From Rhodocyclaceae bacterium (GTDB taxonomy: Bacteria; Pseudomonadota; Gammaproteobacteria; Burkholderiales; Rhodocyclaceae), in NCBI GenBank assembly GCA_024710925.1, contig JANJTW010000189.1, positions 1 through 34,803 on the forward strand: a DNA stretch of 34,803 nt, written 5' to 3'. Numbering within the stretch: position 1 is the first letter of the stretch; each line of letters starts with the position of its first letter. Below, piece by piece: positions 1,246 through 34,803 of this stretch. Below the pieces are notes generated by a model, which saw only the letters and a program-made list of their open reading frames with translations, made no database searches and was not told where the DNA came from. The translations under genes and the position numbers were made by a program.

Positions 1246-2451
1246 TCATTCGGCGCGCAGCGCCTCGACCGGGTCGAGCCGCGCCGCCCGCCGCGCCGGC
1301 AGTACGCCGGCGGCGAGGCCGATGCCGATCGCCGTCGCCTCGGCGAGCAGCACGAAGCTGAGCGGCGTGTGCACCGGCAGCGCCGGCACCGCCAGATGGA
1401 TCAGCTGCGCCAGGCCGACGCCGAGCGCCAGCCCGAACAGCCCGCCGAGCGCGGAGAGCGTCACCGCCTCGCCGAGGAACAGCCCGAGGATGGTCCGCCG
1501 CGGCGCGCCGAGTGCGACCATCAGGCCGATCTCGCCGGTGCGCTCGCTGACGGCGATGGTCATGATGGTGACGATGCCGACGCCGCCGACCAAGAGCGAG
1601 ATGCTGCCGAGCGCGCCGACGGCCATGGTCAGGACGTCGAGAATCTTGGAGAGCGTCTTCAGCATGTCCTCCTGCGTCGTGATCGTGAAGTCCTCGCGGC
1701 CATGGCGGGCGATCAGCGTCGACTTGATCGCCGCGCTCACCTGCGCCGCCGGCACGCCCTCGGCGTACGACACGTGGATTTCCATCAGCCCGTCGCGGTT
1801 GAACAGTTCGAGCGCGCGCGCCGCCGGGATGTAGGCGGTGTCGTCGAGGTCAATGCCGAGGAACTGCCCCTTGCTCTCCAGCACGCCGACGATGCGGAAC
1901 TGGTTGCTGCCGATGCGCAGCTTGGCGCCGAGCGGGTTGGCCGCGCCGAACAGTTCCTGCTTCAGCTTCGCACCGAGGACGACGAAGGCGCGCGGATTCT
2001 CGGCATCCTCGACCGGCAGGAACTGGCCGCTCTTCACCCTGATGCTGAAGATCTTCGCCATCGCCGCGCCGACGCCATAGACCGTCGTCCGGCGCAGCCG
2101 GCCGTTGGCGTTCACCTCGGTATTGCCCCACACCGTCGGCGTCACGCCGGTGACGTGGGGCAGCCGCTCCAGGCTCTGCGCGTCGGCCAGCGTCAGCGGC
2201 CGCACCGAGGTCGGGATGCCCGAAGGGTGCGGCCCGGCGGTCTTCGTCTTGCCCGGGCCGATGCCGATGACGTTGGTGCCGAACTGCGTGAACTCGGCGA
2301 GCACGAAGCGGTGGATGCCTTCGCCGATCGACGTCAGCAGGATCACCGCGGCGATGCCGACGGCGATGCCGAGCAGCGTCAGGAAGGAGCGCAGCCGGTG
2401 CGCGGTGATCGCGCGCAGGGCGAGCTGGACGGAGTCGGCCGGGCGGATCAT
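1246..2451 (-). CDS. MacB/FtsX-like ABC transporter permease (permease 1)
   Basis: 401 aa; N-terminal MacB_PCD-like domain (LTLLGIAVGIAAVILLTSIGEG) and C-terminal FtsX TM domain ending ...[20 protein letters not shown]. Confidence 0.9.
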   Translation of the reverse strand: MIRPADSVQLALRAITAHRLRSFLTLLGIAVGIAAVILLTSIGEGIHRFVLAEFTQFGTNVIGIGPGKTKTAGPHPSGIPTSVRPLTLADAQSLERLPHVTGVTPTVWGNTEVNANGRLRRTTVYGVGAAMAKIFSIRVKSGQFLPVEDAENPRAFVVLGAKLKQELFGAANPLGAKLRIGSNQFRIVGVLESKGQFLGIDLDDTAYIPAARALELFNRDGLMEIHVSYAEGVPAAQVSAAIKSTLIARHGREDFTITTQEDMLKTLSKILDVLTMAVGALGSISLLVGGVGIVTIMTIAVSERTGEIGLMVALGAPRRTILGLFLGEAVTLSALGGLFGLALGVGLAQLIHLAVPALPVHTPLSFVLLAEATAIGIGLAAGVLPARRAARLDPVEALRAE

Positions 2452-2458
2452 CGCGCGC

Positions 2459-3667
2459 TCACCGCTTCGACAGCGCCTGCACCGGATCGAGCCGGGCCGC
2501 CCGGCGCGCCGGCAGCACGCCGAAGACGAGGCCGGTGACGAGCGCCGTGCCGAGTCCGGCGATCACCGCCCAGGCCGGCGGCCAGGCCGGGAAGGCCGGA
2601 TAGAGGTGGCGGATCAGCGCCGCGCCGGCGTGGCCGAGCGCGTAGCCGAAGAGCGCGCCGGCCAGCGAGAGCATGCCGGCCTCGGTCAGGAAGGCGGCGC
2701 GGATGGTGCCGCCGGTGGCGCCGAGCGCCTTCAGGAGGCCGATCTCGGCGGTGCGCTGCGTCACCGAGACGAGCATCACGTTCATCACCAGGATGCCGGC
2801 GACGGCCAGGCTGATCGCGGCGATGCCGGCGACGCCCAGTGTCAGCGCACCGAGCAGGCGGTCGAAGGTGGCCAGCACCGCGTCCTGGGTAATCACCGTG
2901 ACGTCCTCCTCGCCGTCGTGGCGGACCTTGACGATCTCCGTCACCTGCGCCTTCGCCGGCTCGATCGCCTCGCGGCTCTTCGCCTCGACCAGCACGCGGA
3001 ACAGCGTGTTGCTGTTGAACATCTGCTGCGCCAGCGCCACCGGCACGAAGACGATCTCGTCGGTGTTCATGCCCAGGCCCTGGCCGCTTGCCGCGAGCAC
3101 GCCGACGATGCGCAGGCGGCGGTCGCCGACGCGCACCAGCCGGCCGAGCGCCGGCTCGCTGCCGAACATCTCGTTGCGCACCGTGGCGCCGATCACCGCC
3201 TCGCTGGCACCGCGCCGCCAGTCGCCGGCGGCGAGGAAGCGGCCCTGCGCCATGTCCAGCTTGCGCACCTGCGTGTATTCGGCCGTCGTGCCGGCCACCA
3301 TCACCTCGCGCAGCCGGCCGCCGACGCTGATTTCCGACGTGCCGACGGCGATCGGGGAAACGTTCTTCACCGCCGGTGCGCGCAGGAGCGCCTCGGCGTC
3401 GTCCACGGTCAGGTCGCGCGGCGTGTTGGTGATCGCGTTGCCGGGGTTGAAGCCGCCGGTCTGCGAGCGGCCGGGCAGGACGATGACCAGGTTGCTGCCG
3501 ATCGACGAGAACTCGTCGATCACATAGCGCCGCGCGCCGTCGCCGAGCGCGGTGAGGACGACGACGGCGGCGACGCCGATGGCCATCGCCAGCACCAGCA
3601 GCACGGTGCGCAGCGGGTTGCCGGTGGCGGCGTCGCGGGCGAAGCGGAGCAGGTCGGGGGCGCGCAT
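2459..3667 (-). CDS. MacB/FtsX-like ABC transporter permease (permease 2)
   Basis: 402 aa; same architecture as the downstream permease, ends ...[20 protein letters not shown]; 7-nt gap to the next gene. Confidence 0.9.
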
Positions 3668-3677
3668 GGGGCGGGGG

Positions 3678-4364
3678 TCAGGTGGCCGAATCGTGCTTCA
3701 GCGCCCCGTCCTCCATCATCAGCCGCCGCCTGGCGCGGCCGCCGAGCGCCGCGTCGTGGGTGACGACGATCAGCGTCACGCCCTGCGCGTTGAGCCCTTC
3801 GAGCAGGCGCACGACCTCGTCGCCGGTGGCGCGGTCGAGGTTGCCGGTCGGCTCGTCGGCGAGGATCACCGCCGGCCGCATGATCGTCGCGCGGGCGATC
3901 GCCACGCGCTGGCGCTGGCCGCCGGAGAGCTCGTCCGGACGGTGGTTGGCGCGGTCGGCCAGCCCGTAGTCCTGCATCGCCTGCGCCACGCGCGCGGCGC
4001 GCTCGGCCGGCGCGATGCCGGCCAGCGTCATCGGCAGCGCGACGTTCTCGGCGGCGGTCAGCCGCGGCACGAGATGGAAGCTCTGGAAGACGAAGCCGAT
4101 GCGCTCGCTCCTGACGCGCGCCTGCTCCTCGGCCGAGAGCGTCGTCACGTCGCGCCCTTCCAGCCGGTAGCTGCCGGCGTTCGGCCGGTCGAGCAGGCCG
4201 AGCAGGTTCAGGAGCGTCGACTTGCCGGAGCCCGATGGCCCCATCACCGCAACGTATTCGCCGGCGTCGATCTGCAGGTCGAGCCGGCGCAGCGCGTGCA
4301 CCTCGCTGTCGCCGAGATGGAAGACGCGCTCGATGCCGGACAGCGCGATCAGCGGCGCCGCCAT
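3678..4364 (-). CDS. ABC transporter ATP-binding protein, MacB/LolD-like
   Basis: Start placed at [15 protein letters not shown]; Walker [10 protein letters not shown], signature [14 protein letters not shown], Walker [13 protein letters not shown]; start overlaps the upstream adaptor stop (ORF track extends further upstream). Confidence 0.92.
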
Positions 4365-5530
4365 CACTTGCCGCCGTTCTTCTTCTCGTCGGCGACCCAG
4401 GCGGCGCCGGCCTTGACGCCCTCGCGTTCGAGCGAGGTGACGACGCGCTCGCCGGCGGCCAGCCCGTCCACCACCTCGGTGTATTCCCAGTTGGCCAGCC
4501 CGGTCTTCAGCTGCCGCTCGACGAGGCGGCCGTCGCCGCCGGCGACGAGCACGCGGCCGCCCTCCTGCAGCGCCGAGGTCGGCACGCGGACGACGTCCGC
4601 GCGCACGTCGAGGATGATCTCGATGTCGGCGCTGTAGCCGACGAGCAGCTTGCCCGGCGCCGCCGGGTCGTCGAACAGCGCCTCGACATCGACCGTGCGC
4701 GCCTGCTTCTCGACCGCCGAGACGTAGGGCGCGACGCGCTTCACCGTGCCCGGGAAGCTCTGCTTCGGCAGCGCGTCGAGGCTGATGCGCACCGGCTGGC
4801 CGGCGGCGATCTTCGGCGCGTCGACCTCGTCCATCGGCGCCTTCACGTAGAGGCAGGAATCGTCGATCAGGTCGATCGCCGGCGGCGTCGGCACGCCGGG
4901 GGGCGACGGGGTGGAATACTCGCCGACCTCGCCGACGATCTTGGCGACGGTGCCGTCGAACGGCGCGTAGAGTACGGTGCGCCCCTGCTCGACGCGGGTC
5001 GCCTTGAGCTTTGCCTCGGCGGCGGCAACGTCGGCCTTCGCCGCCTCGCAGCCGGCGCGTTTCGCATCCGCCTCGGCGCGCGCCGTTTCCTCGCGCGAGC
5101 CGGAGACGAAGCCGCGCGCGCGCAGCGAGGCCTGCCGCTCGGCTTCCTTCGCCGCGTTGGCGGCCAGCGTGCACACCTCGTTCACGCGCCGCCGCGCCGT
5201 CTCCGTCTGTGCGCCGGCGAGCGTCGCCTGCGCCTGCTGGTCGTCGTTCCACAGCTTCATCAGCAGCTGGCCCTTGTGCACGCGGTCGCCTTCCTTCACC
5301 GCCAGCAGTTCGATGCGACCGCCCATGATCGTCGACAGCTTGGTGCGCTGGCAGGCCTCGACGGTGCCGGCGCGGGTGTTGGCGATGCTCGATTCGACCT
5401 TGCCGCGGTCGATTTCGGCGACGACGACGGCCACCGGCTGCGGCCGGCCGGCCCACCAGACGGCGGCGGCGACGAGGGCGAGGGCGACGAGGGCGAGGGG
5501 CAGGCGGCGGCTCCAGGTGCCGAGGGTCAT
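4364..5530 (-). CDS. HlyD/MacA-family periplasmic adaptor subunit
   Basis: 388 aa; N-terminal TM anchor, lipoyl/barrel-sandwich halves (AGTVEACQRTKLSTIMGGRIELLAVKEGDRVHKGQLLMKL; VLYAPFDGTVAKIVGEVGE), coiled-coil hairpin between them. Confidence 0.92.
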   Translation of the reverse strand: MTLGTWSRRLPLALVALALVAAAVWWAGRPQPVAVVVAEIDRGKVESSIANTRAGTVEACQRTKLSTIMGGRIELLAVKEGDRVHKGQLLMKLWNDDQQAQATLAGAQTETARRRVNEVCTLAANAAKEAERQASLRARGFVSGSREETARAEADAKRAGCEAAKADVAAAEAKLKATRVEQGRTVLYAPFDGTVAKIVGEVGEYSTPSPPGVPTPPAIDLIDDSCLYVKAPMDEVDAPKIAAGQPVRISLDALPKQSFPGTVKRVAPYVSAVEKQARTVDVEALFDDPAAPGKLLVGYSADIEIILDVRADVVRVPTSALQEGGRVLVAGGDGRLVERQLKTGLANWEYTEVVDGLAAGERVVTSLEREGVKAGAAWVADEKKNGGK

Positions 5531-5560
5531 GGCGGCGGGTTCTCCGGTTCGGGTCGAAAA

Positions 5561-8341
5561 TCAGGAAACGTTGATATTGTCGCATCGGCCGCCGTCCGGC
5601 GCATCCCCGGCGCGACGCAGGAGCAGCAGGGCGGCTTCGAAGACGATTTCGTCCCCGTCGCGGACGAAGCGGGCGCGGCCGGCGGCGCCCTCGGCCAGCA
5701 GGTAGTCGGCGAGCCCGGGCTGCAGCGCCTCGTAGTCGGCGAGGGCGGCGCGGCGCGTCTGCGCGGCGACGGTGTCGACGGCGAAACCGGCGGCCGCCGC
5801 CGTCGCCCGCACGCGCGCCGGATGGGCCAAGCCGATGTGCAGGACGAAGGCCTCGCCGTCGTCGGCAAGCGCCGCCGGCAACTGCGCGATCAGTGCGCAG
5901 AGCAGCTCCGCGCCGTCGGCGCCACCGTAGCGGTCGAGGCGGAAGCCGGCCGGCCCCGGCGTCTGCGGCAGGTTGGCGCAGACCAGCGCAGCCCGCTCGC
6001 CGCGGTCGAGCAGCGGCTGCAGCAGGCTGCCGTCGACGAGCAGCGCCTCGTCGGCCATCGCCAGCCGTCGGCGGTGTCGGGTCAGCGTACGTGCCAGCGC
6101 GGCGAGGCTCGGCCGGTGCGGGTCGCTGAAGATGATCCGCGGTAGCCGCTTGCCCTGCCGGGCGAGCGCTTCGAGCAGCGCCAGGCCGAAGGCGCCGCAG
6201 CCGCAGCCGACGTCGATGGCCAGCGCCGGCGCGACGACGCCGGGCGCGACCTGGCGGAAGAGGTCGACGTTCTCCGCCGACAGCGGGTGCGTGCCGGGTG
6301 CCAGGTCGAGGCGCAGCGGCGCGCCGCCGGCGAAGGGCAGCGTCGCCTGGCGACGGGCCAGCGTGCGCGCGAGCAGTGCCGACAATGCCGCCCGCTCGGC
6401 TTCCGGCGCGGCGCTCCCGGCGATGTCGCGGCGGGCCTGCGCGGCCCGGCGCGCGGTGACGTCCGGCGCCGCGAAGCAGGCGGCGTAGGCCGCCGGCAGC
6501 GCGGCGAAACCGGCGAACAGGCGGCCGTTCTCGCCGTCGCGGACGAGCAGGCGGTTGCCGGGAATGTCGCGGGCGAGCACCGGCACGCCGGCGGCCATCG
6601 CTTCCGCCAGCGCGTGGCTGAGGCCTTCGTGCTCGGAGGCGTTGATGACGAGGTCGGCCTCGCGCAGCGCCGCCAGGTAGTCGGCGCGCGGCAGGCCGTC
6701 GTGCAGCCGCAGGCGGCCGCGCAGGCCGGGCCGCTCGGCTTCGAGTCCGGCGATGCGCGCGCGCAGCGCCGCCGCGTAGTCGGCTTCGAGCGGTGGCCCG
6801 AGGACGACCAGCACGTGTTCGGGAAAATCTTCGGCGAGCGGCGCCGCCAGCGCCTCGATGGCCGGCAGCACGCCCTTGAGGCGCCGCAGCGCGGCCGGCA
6901 GCAGCACCAGCCGGGCGTCCGCCGGCAGGTCGAGGGCGGCGCGCAGCGAGAAATGCGAGGCGGTGGCGACGTCGATGCCGTTGGCCAGCACCGTCGTCTC
7001 GGCCGGCGCGGGCAGCCCGGCGAGCGCCTGCCGCTGGCCGTCGTTGAGGCAGATCAGGAAGTCGGCGGCGGCGAGCGCGGCGGCGATCGCCGGCCGCTTC
7101 GCCGCTTCGGCGAGGTCGGCGTTGACGTCGGTGCCGCTGGCCAGCAGGCCGTAGGGCAGCGGCGTTTCCTCGCCGGCGAAGGCGGCGTGCAGCAGCGCAC
7201 CGGCGCGGTGGAGGTGGATGCCGAAGGCGAGGTCGATGCCTTCGCGCGCGGCCAGTTCGCGCAGCCGGATGGCTTCGCGCGCCAGCACCGCCGGCGAGGT
7301 CGCCGCATCCGGGGCGGCGGGCAGCGGCCGGAAGCGGACGTCGGCCAGCGCCGACCAGGCCGCGGCGTAGCGCCGCGCCGTCTCGGCATTGCCGGTGGCC
7401 GGCGTCAGCTTGCCGCAGATCAGCAGCGCCGGCCGTTCGCCGGCGCCGGGGCGCGGCAGTTCGCGGTACGAGCAGCGCTGCCAGCCGGCGACGGCGGTCT
7501 GCCAGTCGCCGCTCGCCAGCACCGCCATCTCGTGCGCGCGCGCCGGCGAGCGGGCGAAATCGTCGGCGGCGTCATCGCTTTCCGGGTAGCCGGGATGCAC
7601 CATCAGTTCGACGGACAGCGGATTTTCCGGCGTCGGCCGCCACTCCGCGGCGAGGCCGGCCAGCGCCGCAGCGACCGTCTCGGCCCGCAGCCGCCCGCCC
7701 ATCGTCGACTGACCGAGGAAGGCCGCCGTCGAATAGACGCCGTGTGCCGCGAAGACCGGCGCGGCGGCTTCGGCGGCGGCGGCGACGGCGCGGTGGAAGG
7801 CGGCGTCGAACTCGGCGTCGGGGGGGATGTCGGCGAGGCCGCGCTGGCGCGGCAGGCGGACGCAGCAGACGCCGTACTCGCGGGCCATGACCGGCGCCAG
7901 CACGGCGGCGACCGCCGGCTCGACGTGGATGTGGTGGTGGCCGTCGACGTGGCTCGGCAGGTCGCCGGTGAGCGCGACGAAGTCGTCGAACTGGGCGCGG
8001 ATTTCGCGGGCGATGGACGCGGCGTCGATGTCGCCGGCGGCGAGCGCGCGGCGCGCGCCGGCCTTGCCGCGCAGGCGGCCGTCGGCGCCGGCCAGCGCAC
8101 CGTCGGTCAGCGGCCGGCCTTCGCTCAGGTTGAGGTGCAGGCCGAGCGGCAGTCCGGCGGCGACGGCGGTGGTAGCGGCCGCGACGGCGGTCGGGCCGTT
8201 GACCAGCAGCGAGGCGGAGGTGACGGCGCCGGCGGCAAACAGTTCGAAAATGCCGGCGTCGCGGCCGGGGCCGCTGCCGAGGTCGTCGGCGTTGACGATC
8301 AGCCGGCGGGCCGGCGGGGCGAGGCGCAGCGGCTGTTCCAT
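5561..8341 (-). CDS. Three-domain fusion: ChbG/YdjC-type carbohydrate deacetylase + GLT1D1-like GT4 glycosyltransferase + class I SAM-dependent methyltransferase
   Basis: 926 aa uninterrupted. N-term (~8320-7490): LIVNADDLGSGPGRDAGI, HVDGHHHIHVEP, ELMVHPGYPE. Middle (~7440-6380): HLHRAGALL..PYGLLASGTDVNADL, NASEHEGLSHALAEAMAAGVPVLARDIPGNRLLVRDGENGRLF. C-term (~6350-5561): AIDVGCGCGAFGLALLEAL, ALVCANLPQTPGP. Confidence 0.88.
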   Translation of the reverse strand: MEQPLRLAPPARRLIVNADDLGSGPGRDAGIFELFAAGAVTSASLLVNGPTAVAAATTAVAAGLPLGLHLNLSEGRPLTDGALAGADGRLRGKAGARRALAAGDIDAASIAREIRAQFDDFVALTGDLPSHVDGHHHIHVEPAVAAVLAPVMAREYGVCCVRLPRQRGLADIPPDAEFDAAFHRAVAAAAEAAAPVFAAHGVYSTAAFLGQSTMGGRLRAETVAAALAGLAAEWRPTPENPLSVELMVHPGYPESDDAADDFARSPARAHEMAVLASGDWQTAVAGWQRCSYRELPRPGAGERPALLICGKLTPATGNAETARRYAAAWSALADVRFRPLPAAPDAATSPAVLAREAIRLRELAAREGIDLAFGIHLHRAGALLHAAFAGEETPLPYGLLASGTDVNADLAEAAKRPAIAAALAAADFLICLNDGQRQALAGLPAPAETTVLANGIDVATASHFSLRAALDLPADARLVLLPAALRRLKGVLPAIEALAAPLAEDFPEHVLVVLGPPLEADYAAALRARIAGLEAERPGLRGRLRLHDGLPRADYLAALREADLVINASEHEGLSHALAEAMAAGVPVLARDIPGNRLLVRDGENGRLFAGFAALPAAYAACFAAPDVTARRAAQARRDIAGSAAPEAERAALSALLARTLARRQATLPFAGGAPLRLDLAPGTHPLSAENVDLFRQVAPGVVAPALAIDVGCGCGAFGLALLEALARQGKRLPRIIFSDPHRPSLAALARTLTRHRRRLAMADEALLVDGSLLQPLLDRGERAALVCANLPQTPGPAGFRLDRYGGADGAELLCALIAQLPAALADDGEAFVLHIGLAHPARVRATAAAAGFAVDTVAAQTRRAALADYEALQPGLADYLLAEGAAGRARFVRDGDEIVFEAALLLLRRAGDAPDGGRCDNINVS

Positions 8342-8368
8342 GCGTGCGCAGCCCGGGCCGGCGGCCGG

Positions 8369-9181
8369 TCAGCGGAAGCGGTTGATCGCGTCGCGCGTTG
8401 CCAGCGCCGCCTGCCGGGCGGCCGCTGCGTAATCCTCGTTGCGGCCGGCGTAGAGGATGGCGCGCGAGGAGTTGATCATCAGGCCGGTGCCGTTGGCCGT
8501 GCGGCCGGCGTTCACCGTCGCCTCGATGTCGCCGCCCTGGGCGCCGATGCCCGGCACCAGCAGCGGCATGTCGCTGGTCAGCTCGCGCACGCGCGCGATC
8601 TCGGCCGGGAAGGTGGCGCCGACGACCAGCGCGCACTGGCCGCTGGCGTTCCATTCGCTGGCGACCAGGCGGGCGACGCGCTCGTAGAGCTTCATGCCGC
8701 CGACGTGGAGGAATTGCAGGTCGCTGCCGCCGGGGGTGGAGGTGCGGCAGAGCAGGATGACGCCCTTGTTCCTGTAGGCGAGGTAGGGCTCGACCGAGTC
8801 GCGGCCCATGTACGGGTTGGCGGTGACGGCGTCGGCGCCGTAGCGCTCGAAGGCCTCGATGGCGTACTGCTCGGCGGTGCTGCCGATGTCGCCGCGCTTG
8901 GCGTCGAGGATCACCGGGATGCCGGGGTAGGTGACGCGGATGTGCGCGATCAGCGCCTCCAGCTGGTCCTCGGCGCGGCGCGAGGCGAAGTAGGCGATCT
9001 GCGGCTTGAAGCAGCAGACGAGGTCGGCGGTGGCGTCGACGATGCTCTTGCAGAACTCGAAGATGGCGTCGTCGCGGCCCTGCAGGTGCACCGGAAATTT
9101 CGTCGGGTCCGGGTCGAGGCCGACGCAGAGCAGGGAGTCGTTGCGGGTCCAGGCGGCGTTGAGCGATTCGATGAAGGTCAT
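8369..9181 (-). CDS. pyrF: Orotidine 5'-phosphate decarboxylase, type 2
   Basis: Start at [66 protein letters not shown] motifs. Confidence 0.95.
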
Positions 9182-9387
9182 GCGTCTTTCTCCGTTTTCT
9201 GTGCGGCGGCCGCTTCGGCGGCCTGCCGGCGGGCGATTTTTTCGCGGAAGCGGGCGTTCTTGCTTTCGTCGGCGAAGCGGAAGCGGCCGGACAGTTCGCA
9301 GCCCTTCATGCCCGGATCGCACGGCAGATCGTTGATCTTGCTGCAGCGGTCGTTTACCTCGTGGGGGCAGCCCCAGCCTCCGGCCAT
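9178..9387 (-). CDS. Small four-cysteine hypothetical protein
   Basis: 69 aa, [38 protein letters not shown]...; stop overlaps the pyrF start by 4 nt (ATGA), supporting real coding. Confidence 0.65.
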
Positions 9388-9593
9388 CTTTCTTCCTTCC
9401 TCCGCAAAGGGGGTATTTTCGCACCGACTCGCGGCGCGTGCATGCCTGCGCTGCGAGCTTCTTCCGCGGATCTTCGTTCCGCGGCCTGAAATGACGCCAT
9501 GATATGACCCAGATCAATGTCGAGCCCGAATCGCGGCCTTACGATCCCGTGGTCGCCGACCGGCGGACGTCAATGCAGCGACTCGGGGGGGTT

Positions 9594-12158
9594 ATGCGTA
9601 TCAGGACATTCATTCTGGCCGCATCCGCGGCGGTCGGAATCCTATTCTTCGGGGGCACCTATCTGATGATGGGCGGCATCCTCGACCAGGTCGTCAAGGC
9701 CAACGCCGTGCGCACGTCCGACGCCGTCGCCCGCGTCACCTTCACCTCGATGTACCAGCTGATGAGCGCCGGCTGGAAGCGCGCCCAGGCCGAAGCCTTC
9801 CTCAAGGCGACGCACGGCGCCGGCGCCGAGTCCGGGCTGGATATCGAGATTTACCGCGGCAAGCTGGTCGAGGCGATCTACGACGCCATCGAGCAGGCGC
9901 CGATGGACAGCCAGATCCTCGGCGCCCTCGCCGACGGTCGCCGGCGCCATCTGGAAGGCGAGAACTCGGTGCGCCACATCTACCCGCTGGTCGCCGAGGA
10001 GCGCTGCCTGCGCTGCCACCGCAACGCCACCGAGGGCTCGGTGCTCGGCGCCATCGAGATCCGCCAGGAATTCGGCCCGGTCGTCGCCGACGCGCGCGGC
10101 GACCTCGTCGTCGCGCTCGGCGCGCTGCTGCCGTTGATCGTCGCGCTCGCCAGCGTCGTCGTCTGGTGGGTCTGCCGGCGCATCGAGGATTCGCTGTACG
10201 ACCTCGGTGCCAGCCTCGAACGTGTCAATTCGGTGAGCGACCTGCGCCAGGTCGCGCTCGACCGGCACGACCTGCGCTTCCTCGAACTCAACCGCCTCGT
10301 CGGCTCGCTCGACGTGCTGGTGAACAAGCTGCGCACGGTGGCCGTCGACAAGGACATCCTGACCTTCGAGATCGGCCTGCTCGAGAAATTCGTCATCACC
10401 TCCGACGTCGTCCGCGACTGGCGCGAGTACGTCGGCCAGCTGCTCTCCGACATCAATCGCGTGATGCCGGCGCATGTGCTGTTCTCGGTGTTCAAGATCG
10501 ACGACGAGGTCTTCGACCTAGAGATCTTCTGGCGCGGCCGGCCGTCGCCGGCGACGAAGTCGATGATGGAGACGCACATCCGCGCGGCACTCGCCGACAG
10601 CCCGAACTTCTCCGACATGACCGCCTGTTCGCTCAACCACCACGTCGTCGACGGCGACCTCGCCGAGGTCGTGCTCAGCGAGGACGCGGTGGCGGTGCGC
10701 GTGAAATCCTTCTTCGTCGATTCGCCGAAAATCGGTGGCATCGTCGGCATCGGCGTGCATTCCGAAGTGCTGGAGGACGAGACGCGGCACCTGGTGATGG
10801 AAAGCGTGCTGTCGACGCTGCTCAACGTCGTCGGCTCGGTCAAGGCGATCTACAAGTACACCCGCGACCTTGAGTACTACGCGACGCGCGACCCGCTCAC
10901 CGACCTCTTCAACCAGCGCGTCTTCTGGGAGCTGGCCAACTACGAGATCGGCCGCGCCGCGCGCCACGGCTATTCCTTCGGCCTGCTGCTGATCGACCTC
11001 GACAACTTCAAGGTGATCAACGACAGCCACGGCCATCCGGTCGGGGACCGGTACCTGCAGCAGTTCGCCCGCGAGGTGCAGGAGGCGCTGCGCGCCGGCG
11101 ACGTGCTCGCCCGCTACGGCGGCGACGAGTTCGTCGCCATCCTGCCCGAGGCCGACCTCAACGGCGTGGCGATGGTCGCCGAGCGCGTGCGCGCGGCGAT
11201 CGAGGCGATGCAGCTCGAACTCGACGACGGCGTTCGCCTGCGCGGCACCGGCTCGATCGGCATGGCGGTGTTCCCGGAGCACGCCGACAACGCCAAGGAT
11301 CTCTTCCTCTTCGCCGACAACATGATGTACAAGGCCAAGGCCGGCGGCAAGGACCGGGTTGCCGTGCCGACCGCCGACGACGTCGTCGACGCTTTCCGCG
11401 ACATCACCGAGAAGAGCGCGCTGGTGCTGGAAGCCATCGAGTCGAAGCGGGTCATCCCCTTCTTCCAGCCGATCCTCGACGTGGCGACGAAACACATCGT
11501 CGCCTACGAGGTGCTGTCGCGCATCGAGGTCAACGGCGAGATCATGCGCGCCGACGAGTTCGTCGAGATCGCCGAGAAAATGGGCGTCATCCACCGCCTC
11601 GACGCGCTCGTCATCGAGGCCGCGCTCGCCCGCCTGCGCGAGATGGAGCACGACGGCCGCGTCTTCATCAACCTCTCGCCGCGCGCGCTGGTGCTCAGTG
11701 AATTCGGCCGCAACGTCCGCCAGATCGTCGCTGCCAGCGGCTTCCGCAACGACCAGATCGTCTTCGAGATCACCGAGCGCGACACGGTGAAGAACATCTC
11801 GATGCTCGAACGCCTGCTCAACGAACTGAAGCTCGAAGGGTTCAAGCTGGCCATCGACGACTTCGGCTCCGGCTTCTCGTCCTTCCACTACCTGCGCCGC
11901 TTCCCGATCGACTACCTGAAGATCGAGGGCGACTTCATCGCCAACATGCTGACCAGCCAGAAGGACCGGGCGGTGGTCACCAGCATCAAGTCGCTGGCGC
12001 AGGAAATGGGCATCACCATCGTCGCCGAATTCGTCGAGTCGCAGGAAGTGCTCGACGAACTGCATCAGATGGGCGTGCATCTGGCGCAGGGCTACTACAT
12101 CGGCAAGCCGCAGCGGGAGACCATTTCCGCCGACTGGCTGGCCCCCGTCAAGGACTGA
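9594..12158 (+). CDS. Membrane-bound GGDEF-EAL protein with periplasmic CXXCH (heme c-like) sensor segment
   Basis: N-terminal TM, periplasmic region with CLRCH, second TM (VVALGALLPLIVALASVVVWWV), GGDEF with RxxD I-site (RAGDVLARYGGDEF), EAL-type domain (AYEVLSRI, INLSPRA, EITER, DDFGSGFSS, YLKIEGDFI, AEFVES, AQGYYIGKP). Alternative starts at 9504 and 9573. Confidence 0.9.
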   Translation: MRIRTFILAASAAVGILFFGGTYLMMGGILDQVVKANAVRTSDAVARVTFTSMYQLMSAGWKRAQAEAFLKATHGAGAESGLDIEIYRGKLVEAIYDAIEQAPMDSQILGALADGRRRHLEGENSVRHIYPLVAEERCLRCHRNATEGSVLGAIEIRQEFGPVVADARGDLVVALGALLPLIVALASVVVWWVCRRIEDSLYDLGASLERVNSVSDLRQVALDRHDLRFLELNRLVGSLDVLVNKLRTVAVDKDILTFEIGLLEKFVITSDVVRDWREYVGQLLSDINRVMPAHVLFSVFKIDDEVFDLEIFWRGRPSPATKSMMETHIRAALADSPNFSDMTACSLNHHVVDGDLAEVVLSEDAVAVRVKSFFVDSPKIGGIVGIGVHSEVLEDETRHLVMESVLSTLLNVVGSVKAIYKYTRDLEYYATRDPLTDLFNQRVFWELANYEIGRAARHGYSFGLLLIDLDNFKVINDSHGHPVGDRYLQQFAREVQEALRAGDVLARYGGDEFVAILPEADLNGVAMVAERVRAAIEAMQLELDDGVRLRGTGSIGMAVFPEHADNAKDLFLFADNMMYKAKAGGKDRVAVPTADDVVDAFRDITEKSALVLEAIESKRVIPFFQPILDVATKHIVAYEVLSRIEVNGEIMRADEFVEIAEKMGVIHRLDALVIEAALARLREMEHDGRVFINLSPRALVLSEFGRNVRQIVAASGFRNDQIVFEITERDTVKNISMLERLLNELKLEGFKLAIDDFGSGFSSFHYLRRFPIDYLKIEGDFIANMLTSQKDRAVVTSIKSLAQEMGITIVAEFVESQEVLDELHQMGVHLAQGYYIGKPQRETISADWLAPVKD

Positions 12159-33605: not shown

Positions 33606-34157
33606 CTATTTCTTCTTGCCGGCCGCCGTGGAACCGACCGCCTTGGCGGTGGCGCTCGATGCCGCCTGCAGGTTGGCGTCGGCGATCTCGGTCATCTGCC
33701 GGGCCATGTTCTGCATGTTGCCGAAGGCCTGGTTGGTCGCGTCGAGCATCGACTTCATCGCCGCTGCGAAAACGTCGCCGCCGACCGGCGCTTGTGCCGA
33801 GGTCTTCTCGATGGTGGCGCTGGCCTTCTTGCTGAAGTCGCTGTACTGCGAGTTCATTGCCGTGGTGACTTCCTGCTGCATCTGCGTCACCAGGTCGTAG
33901 ACGCTGCGCGAGTACTCCATCAGCTTCTGCACGTTCGGCTGCGACAGCGAGGCGTTGATCTTGGCCAGTTCCTGCGCATCCTTCGCGGCAAGGATCTGCT
34001 GCGCGTTGGCGACGCTGGCGTTGAAGAATTCGCGGCTGGCCGCCATGTTCAGCGCCGCCAGCTTTTCCATGCCCTCGAAGGCGGTGCGCATGAGCGTCAT
34101 CATCACTTCGGTGTTGGCTTTCTGGGCAGCGGCCAGTTGGTCCAGATTGGTGCTCAT
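33606..34157 (-). CDS. Phasin-family protein (PHA granule-associated)
   Basis: MSTNLDQLAAAQKANTEVMMTLMRTAFEGMEKLAALNMAASREFFNASVANAQQIL...; start at 34157 chosen because GGAGG lies 5 nt upstream, inside the longer 34169 ORF start. Confidence 0.92.
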   Translation of the reverse strand: MSTNLDQLAAAQKANTEVMMTLMRTAFEGMEKLAALNMAASREFFNASVANAQQILAAKDAQELAKINASLSQPNVQKLMEYSRSVYDLVTQMQQEVTTAMNSQYSDFSKKASATIEKTSAQAPVGGDVFAAAMKSMLDATNQAFGNMQNMARQMTEIADANLQAASSATAKAVGSTAAGKKK

Positions 34158-34246
34158 CGCATCCTCCATCGTTTCTAAGGGTCAGAAAGACTGAATATAG
34201 GTTATTTACCCGGCATTAACCAAGCCGGAATCGCAAAAAACGGACG

Positions 34247-34293: not shown

Positions 34294-34803
34294 TCAGGCA
34301 GCCTTCTTCTTGCCGGCAGCGGCGGTGGCGCCGACCGCCTTGACCGTCGCGTTGGTCGCGGCGGCGACGTTCGCTTCGGCGATCTCGGCAACCTGCTTGG
34401 CAGCCTTGTTCATGCTGTCGAAGGCCGAGTTGGCGGCGGCGATGGCCGACTTGACGGCGGCGACGGCAACGTCCGAACCGGCCGGGGCCGACTTGGCTGC
34501 CTTGTCCAGCAGGCCGGCGACCGACTTCTGGAACTCGGCGAACTGCGACTCCAGGACCTTGGCGAACTCTTCCTGGGTCTGGGCCGAGATTTCGTAGACG
34601 CTACGCGAGTAGGCGACGGCCTTCTCGACGTTCGGCTGGGCCAGCGTGGCCTGGACCGAGATCGCTTCCTGCACGTCCTTGGCGCCGAGCAGGGCCTTGG
34701 TGTTGGAAACGCCGTCTTCCAGCACGGAGCGGGCGGTGTTCAGGTTCAGGGCGGCGACGCGCTCGGCCGAAGCCAGGGCGGTGTTGGCCAGGGTCAGCAG
34801 GGA
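34294..34803 (-). CDS. Phasin-family protein, N-terminus beyond the window end
   Basis: Reading frame open to the window edge (...SLLTLANTALASAERVAALNLNTARSVLEDGVSNTKALLGAKDVQEAISVQATLAQPNVEKAVAYSRSVYEIS...); C-terminal AAGKKKAA. Confidence 0.9.
   Translation of the reverse strand, partial: SLLTLANTALASAERVAALNLNTARSVLEDGVSNTKALLGAKDVQEAISVQATLAQPNVEKAVAYSRSVYEISAQTQEEFAKVLESQFAEFQKSVAGLLDKAAKSAPAGSDVAVAAVKSAIAAANSAFDSMNKAAKQVAEIAEANVAAATNATVKAVGATAAAGKKKAA

Follow-up and report, generated by a model that had tools for sequence, protein, structure and literature searches.

Mycothiol (MshA/MshB) and bacillithiol (BshA/BshB) are both built by the logic of a GT4 glycosyltransferase paired with a de-N-acetylase, and the deacetylases of both pathways belong to the PIG-L family, not to ChbG. 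In the N-methyl-bacillithiol pathway (BshA, BshB, BshC, NmbA), the class I methyltransferase NmbA finishes the molecule by methylating the cysteine nitrogen (PMC12719100). Chitooligosaccharide deacetylases of the ChbG/YdjC family usually stand alone; the active site of the Klebsiella enzyme (kpChbG) comprises the Zn-binding and acid/base residues D10, D11, H61, H125 and H206, plus R223 (PMC9402603). SenB, a selenosugar synthase of the GT4 type, prefers UDP-GlcNAc, with donor choice set by N20, T23 and E231, plus K158 (PMC10891094). A GT4 group that NCBIfam calls the 'GPMC system' combines an NF038229 glycosyltransferase with an NF038231 MBL-fold hydrolase (genomes G1636 and G1613); in G1636 a YdjC gene overlaps the GT4 gene, and our literature search on the 'GPMC system' found no paper. 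We know of no SenB fused to a deacetylase or a methyltransferase.

Here we describe a gene that joins a ChbG/YdjC deacetylase, a GT4 glycosyltransferase and a class I methyltransferase in one polypeptide. It lies in a 34,803-nucleotide stretch of Rhodocyclaceae DNA, analysed at its full length and hereafter called the window. The fusion is real, conserved and rare, where rare refers to about 1,200 genomes in partial samples plus a pattern scan of one genome per species, and it is a novel arrangement of known enzyme families: each of its parts, as well as the GT4 of a corresponding split operon (the NCBIfam 'GPMC' group), is already known at family level.

Three enzyme domains in one reading frame

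The fusion and its domains map to the window as follows:
5561..8341, minus strand: three-domain fusion gene (ChbG/YdjC deacetylase, GT4 glycosyltransferase, class I methyltransferase), from the ORF call, Pfam/NCBIfam and relatives
7490..8308, minus strand: ChbG/YdjC deacetylase domain, residues 12-284, from PF04794
6362..7432, minus strand: GT4 glycosyltransferase domain, residues ~304-660, from PF00534 and NF038229
5609..6289, minus strand: class I methyltransferase domain, residues ~685-911, from AlphaFold, Foldseek and the operon signature

The gene encodes 926 amino acids between a start ATG at 8341 and a stop TGA at 5561. A sequence-only reading of this DNA had seen three enzyme domains in one uninterrupted frame, and the ORF, Pfam/NCBIfam searches and two structure models bear this out; its coordinates hold, with coding assigned to the minus strand (8341 to 5561), the plus strand across 5561-8341 being interrupted by a stop. 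All the motifs it quoted (NADDLG, HVDGHHHIH, HPGY, E-x7-E, DVGCGCGAFG) were found. It had also failed to recognise the domain order, and no described enzyme with that order turned up in the curated libraries or in our literature search, which found no publication on a deacetylase-GT4-methyltransferase architecture. On the plus strand, a 1071-aa ORF (6287-9502) runs antisense to the fusion and pyrF; since homology assigns coding to the minus strand, we attribute it to the high GC content.

The contig comes from a very GC-rich draft assembly in 262 contigs, the kind of setting in which an assembly error or frameshift could make separate genes look like a single frame. This explanation is extremely unlikely. 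Both junctions are in frame in independent assemblies, the flanks are syntenic among relatives, and GC by codon position is uniform, with the coding pattern maintained across both domain junctions and a third-position value of 0.92-0.94 there. Overall, the fusion gene has 77% GC versus 69% in the surrounding DNA. No internal ATG, GTG or TTG occurs at codons 280-325, which cover the first junction, and the sole start-type codon near the second junction is one TTG (codon 653), with no ATG or GTG. For practical purposes, chance and assembly error are excluded.

The deacetylase domain is a clear YdjC family member, scoring 184.3 bits with PF04794 against a gathering cut-off of 29.7. In alignment, the six kpChbG active-site residues correspond to D19, D20, H69, H135, H249 and R268, none of which varies among the five fusions described below. 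The domain thus has the fold and the complete active site of a chitooligosaccharide deacetylase, and differs from those usually stand-alone enzymes in being joined to a GT4. It falls short of the chitin disaccharide deacetylase equivalog NF002559 (105 bits versus 227) and lies below the HpnK cut-off of 232.6.

The GT4 domain belongs to its family with equal clarity: PF00534 (Glycos_transf_1) matches residues 467-610 with 63.9 bits against a cut-off of 26.4, and the E-x7-E motif is E572/E580. More specific models do not claim it. NF038229 ('GPMC system' GT4) matches over its full length (306-661) with 159.6 bits versus a cut-off of 400; the SenB model TIGR04348 gives 52.7 bits versus 300, and the BshA and MshA models give 25 versus 274 and 41 versus 462, respectively, placing the domain outside the bacillithiol and mycothiol enzymes. 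The SenB donor-choice residues N20, T23 and E231, together with K158, nevertheless align with N318, T321, E572 and K489, and of the SenB acceptor pocket, N20, H58, R61, T85, R155 and K158 are retained as N318, H376, R379, T404, R486 and K489, T83 being replaced by S402. Fusion and SenB thus have in common the donor site and most of the acceptor site.

In the GT4 tree, the fusion domains form one clade (100/100), although the position of the window sequence inside the fusion clade is uncertain because its composition is unusual in both the GT4 and the YdjC trees. The fusions, SenB and GPMC-like GT4s from Desulfobacterota are grouped at 100/99, apart from 12 of the 13 other GT4s; the thirteenth, L043, clusters with SenB. 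The GPMC MBL-fold partner NF038231 had no match in the five fusion-bearing genomes (G000, G005, G004, G437 and G467), whose assemblies are incomplete. With the GT4 below both the GPMC and the SenB cut-offs and the MBL-fold gene not found, we file the fusion in neither group.

The methyltransferase domain is recognised weakly by family models: TIGR03534 gives 23 bits over residues 708-854, and Pfam Methyltransf_12 stays below its cut-off. Its fold is better defined. A separate AlphaFold model of the C-terminus, built with seven sequences, reached a pLDDT of 77 and a pTM of 0.81, and Foldseek matched it to class I methyltransferases, with MmtN, an S-methyltransferase, as the best match. The Rossmann-like fold and the DxGxGxG loop identify a class I SAM methyltransferase. 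The SAM loop DVGCGCG occupies residues 710-716, the acidic D740 closes the second strand of the domain, and two further motifs follow, NLPQTPGP (790-797) and RYGGADG (804-810). In the whole-protein model (pLDDT 64, five sequences), in which the C-terminus has low confidence, the other two folds are apparent from matches to ChbG 7vi8 (TM 0.83 on target) and to the GT4 enzymes BshA, GlgM and SenB. The catalytic residues of the deacetylase and the GT4 are intact, and the methyltransferase keeps its SAM loop yet has NLPQ (790-793) where its relatives carry NPPY.

This last difference separates the domain from PrmC/HemK, whose equivalog it matches with 23 bits versus 199. PrmC/MTS-type enzymes, MmtN and an apramycin N-methyltransferase have the class I fold and the SAM loop in common with the fusion, along with a substrate motif where NPPY lies. 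Among the nearest matches of a PDB profile search were solved structures with two kinds of annotation, release factor glutamine methyltransferase and apramycin biosynthesis N-methyltransferase, the latter with ANLPRQ at the NLPQ position; AprI is described as an N-methyltransferase of apramycin synthesis (PMC11033246). A profile built from just the window and L021 methyltransferases gave no match in the PDB. The fusion domain weakly matches methyltransferases that stand alone in the order (L069-L073); these keep NPPW and probably belong to another family. The fusion domain is a diverged PrmC/MTS-type methyltransferase marked by NLPQ. True membership in GPMC, SenB, PrmC, BshA or MshA is ruled out, every score lying below the curated cut-off.

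Relatives and the site of the fusion gene

A second three-domain fusion occurs in Rhodocyclaceae MAG.136 (locus L021, genome G005), of the same genus. It is 955 aa long, is ~59-63% identical to the window fusion with the frame kept through both junctions, and occupies the same locus between pyrF and macA. The first junction is in frame in three further genomes (L022, L023 and L002). L022 (G437) and L023 (G467), from another genus of the family, carry deacetylase-GT4 fusions of ~660 aa in which the GT4 domain is the last, without a methyltransferase. The fifth copy, L002 (G004), lies in a different locus and is truncated by the contig end after the GT4 domain. As the methyltransferase is absent from two of the four complete fusions, it is dispensable to the core; gain versus loss of this domain depends on a tree rooting that rests on a long branch. 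The GT4 domain of L021 also contains an in-frame repeat, with SPLGKPGMGDSA present twice (alignment A1, columns ~401-422), in the G005 fusion only.

A search with the five-row alignment found the fusion in 5 of 399 sampled genomes of the family, three of them among the seven genomes of the genus. Samples of the order (n=400) and the phylum (n=399) held no further fusion beyond the window genome, only stand-alone YdjC genes. The pattern scan of one genome per species gave three fusions, two of them without the methyltransferase, and a plasmid search found no copy.

The flanks of the window fusion include three features:
8369..9187, minus strand: pyrF, orotidine-5'-phosphate decarboxylase (TIGR02127, 235 bits), 27 bp upstream of the fusion, flank only
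1246..5530, minus strand: MacA-like adaptor, ABC ATPase and two MacB/FtsX-type permeases, a conserved flank downstream of the fusion
5558..5588, minus strand: conserved element upstream of macA (GCGACAATATC...CTAAT/CTGAT), seen in G001, G002, G005 and G006

The fusion directly precedes macA, the ABC ATPase and the two permeases in both the window and L021, an arrangement in which the exporter could be its partner and the product an exported, antibiotic-like glycoside. This is very improbable, and we reject the exporter as a partner on the evidence of empty sites in three genomes of the same genus. G001, G002 and G006 lack the fusion and keep pyrF next to macA across a gap of 114-146 bp, where tblastn detected no fusion remnants. 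The exporter is conserved regardless: its window proteins share ~83-94% identity with their counterparts in relatives, whether these carry the fusion or not. It lends no support to a secreted product. Moreover, macA retains its own upstream element, and the other fusion loci (L022, L023) are without the exporter. The GCGACAATATC...CTAAT-like element is probably the macA promoter; it occurs with and without the fusion (the G001 variant is GCGATAATATC), and the final codons of the window fusion overlap it, whereas the L021 fusion stops before it.

The window and G005 genomes therefore carry the fusion at one site, and relatives at least as close lack it; loss in several lineages and allele exchange are each a possible cause of this pattern. 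No dedicated biosynthetic or resistance gene was found adjacent to it. On the far side of pyrF, the window carries an 884-aa GGDEF-EAL protein (9504-12155, plus strand). In G005, an extra gene lies between the two permease genes (L021 12022-12822, 266 aa), and a gap of similar size is present in G002 (L086 ~7607-8576); insertions seem to be tolerated at several joints of the exporter operon.

Separate genes in Desulfobacterota

An NF038229 search of 228 genomes from the phylum of L029 (Desulfobacterota/Thermodesulfobacteriota) identified 13 strong GT4 genes, two of them over the cut-off. A YdjC gene adjoins the GT4 gene at seven of ten loci examined (L104, L108-L113), and at four of the ten (L108-L111) a methyltransferase gene is adjacent as well. 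The order is [ATP-grasp+methyltransferase]-YdjC-GT4, as separate genes. These genes are tightly packed, with overlaps that are approximate since start codons were taken as first-in-frame: methyltransferase and YdjC overlap by 4-37 bp in the three loci measured, including 4 bp in both L110 and L111, and YdjC and GT4 overlap by 25 bp in L110 and lie 2 bp apart in L111. The methyltransferases are 557-584 aa proteins with an N-terminal D-Ala-D-Ala-ligase-like ATP-grasp domain. The operon GT4s (L108-L111) score 280-286 bits with NF038229, also below the GPMC cut-off.

The operon's methyltransferase leads back to the fusion. When the window genome was searched with the operon protein, the top match was the C-terminal domain of the fusion (E 8.4e-16), above all other methyltransferases, and the fusion domain was likewise found in G005 (E 2.8e-16), in genome-wide searches that covered the operon-to-fusion direction. 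Fusion and operon methyltransferases have in common a PQTPGP...F...RYGG signature that is absent from the generic relatives of the order (NPPW). On this signature and the best-match searches, the methyltransferase of the fusion is that of the operon, and our main result is that the fusion has its counterpart in an operon of another phylum. The two have all three enzyme types, the methyltransferase signature and the GT4 group in common; the operon differs in consisting of three genes, in the order methyltransferase-YdjC-GT4, and in joining an ATP-grasp domain, absent from the fusion, to the methyltransferase. The GPMC system proper also has a GT4 of the same group. A survey of fused versus split genes, proposed by the sequence-only reading, thus places the fused form in few Rhodocyclaceae and the separate genes in Desulfobacterota, and its idea of a common pathway for the three activities gains support from the same enzymes standing side by side there. 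Its stronger picture of an 'assembly line' with channelling between the domains is at most conjecture.

The YdjC tree gives a slightly different picture. The fusion domains are sister to Peregrinibacteria genes (98/97), with the Desulfobacterota operon genes as the next group (93/94). The surroundings of these nearest relatives (L024-L027) contained no related GT4 or methyltransferase. Because the GT4 and YdjC trees differ in this detail, we make no claim that the module as a whole arose once.

The link to an uncharacterised Desulfobacterota operon raises the interest of the fusion. A natural fusion implies that its parts act together, and in this case the GT4 group of the 'GPMC system' becomes linked to a deacetylase and a methyltransferase. 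The fusion also offers a single protein whose expression could help to reveal what an operon of a different phylum makes, and the PQTPGP...F...RYGG signature is a specific handle for further such loci.

Candidate products

Fusion of three enzymes that are encoded elsewhere as neighbours suggests that all of them build one small amino-sugar-containing molecule. We favour a cytosolic trifunctional enzyme that produces a small amino-sugar conjugate, a reading to which we give about even credence. The GT4 domain would take GlcNAc, or a different HexNAc, from its UDP-sugar donor and attach it to a small acceptor; the ChbG domain would then strip the N-acetyl group and free the amine; and the methyltransferase domain would methylate the product from SAM, most plausibly at the freed nitrogen. 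The two-domain fusions would end at the deacetylated glycoside. The Desulfobacterota ATP-grasp domain might add an acyl group to the amine, a step for which MshC and BshC use other folds. Nitrogen as the methylated atom is favoured by the apramycin N-methyltransferase entry with its ANLPRQ motif and by the NmbA precedent. On the other side, PrmC-type enzymes that methylate nitrogen carry NPPY and not NLPQ, which leaves room for O- or S-methylation, and the best fold match, MmtN, is an S-methyltransferase.

The scheme parallels N-methyl-bacillithiol and mycothiol synthesis in its GT4 and de-N-acetylase logic, and the former also in its class I N-methyltransferase step. Those systems differ in having a PIG-L deacetylase and separate genes, the fusion GT4 is far under the BshA and MshA cut-offs, and no BshC-like partner was identified for the fusion. 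By analogy, it would work like a bacillithiol-type system but is none. More tentatively, and with doubt outweighing confidence, the fusion and the Desulfobacterota operon may represent a so far undescribed family of small conjugates built on an amino sugar. Such a molecule could serve as a cofactor, redox buffer or signal; it would carry a methyl group and, in some lineages, an acyl group added by an ATP-grasp ligase, and in these Rhodocyclaceae a single polypeptide would make it.

A polysaccharide or glycolipid (LPS, exopolysaccharide or a hopanoid head group) might be decorated instead, with HexNAc added to a lipid-linked or polymer acceptor, deacetylated and methyl-capped; HpnK is thought to deacetylate as the YdjC domain would here. 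Many GT4 enzymes use lipid-linked sugars, HpnK is the top-scoring model for the YdjC partners in Desulfobacterota (131-137 bits), and L022 has an O-antigen-type ABC exporter, Wzm/Wzt-like by sequence, immediately downstream. Yet every HpnK score is under the cut-off of 232.6, and no consistent polysaccharide cluster emerges, the neighbours in L023, L021 and the window being unrelated. Since the GT4 moreover groups with SenB/GPMC and not with the sampled exopolysaccharide-type GT4s, we consider this decoration somewhat unlikely, though deserving of weight.

The grouping with SenB raises another product, a deacetylated, methylated seleno- or thiosugar made by a SenB-like selenium/sulfur glycosyltransferase. 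The single tree group of fusion, SenB and GPMC-like GT4s and the acceptor pocket retained except for T83 speak for it, but several of the SenB residues are also found in Desulfobacterota GT4s and may be general. With a SenB score of 53 against a cut-off of 300, no SenB over the cut-off in the five fusion-bearing genomes and no selenium gene seen beside the fusion, such a product is improbable.

Away from the fusion, two tandem phasin genes lie at 33609-34169 and 34297-34725 of the window (minus strand), and a similar-looking pair is found upstream of the two-domain fusion in L088 (G437).
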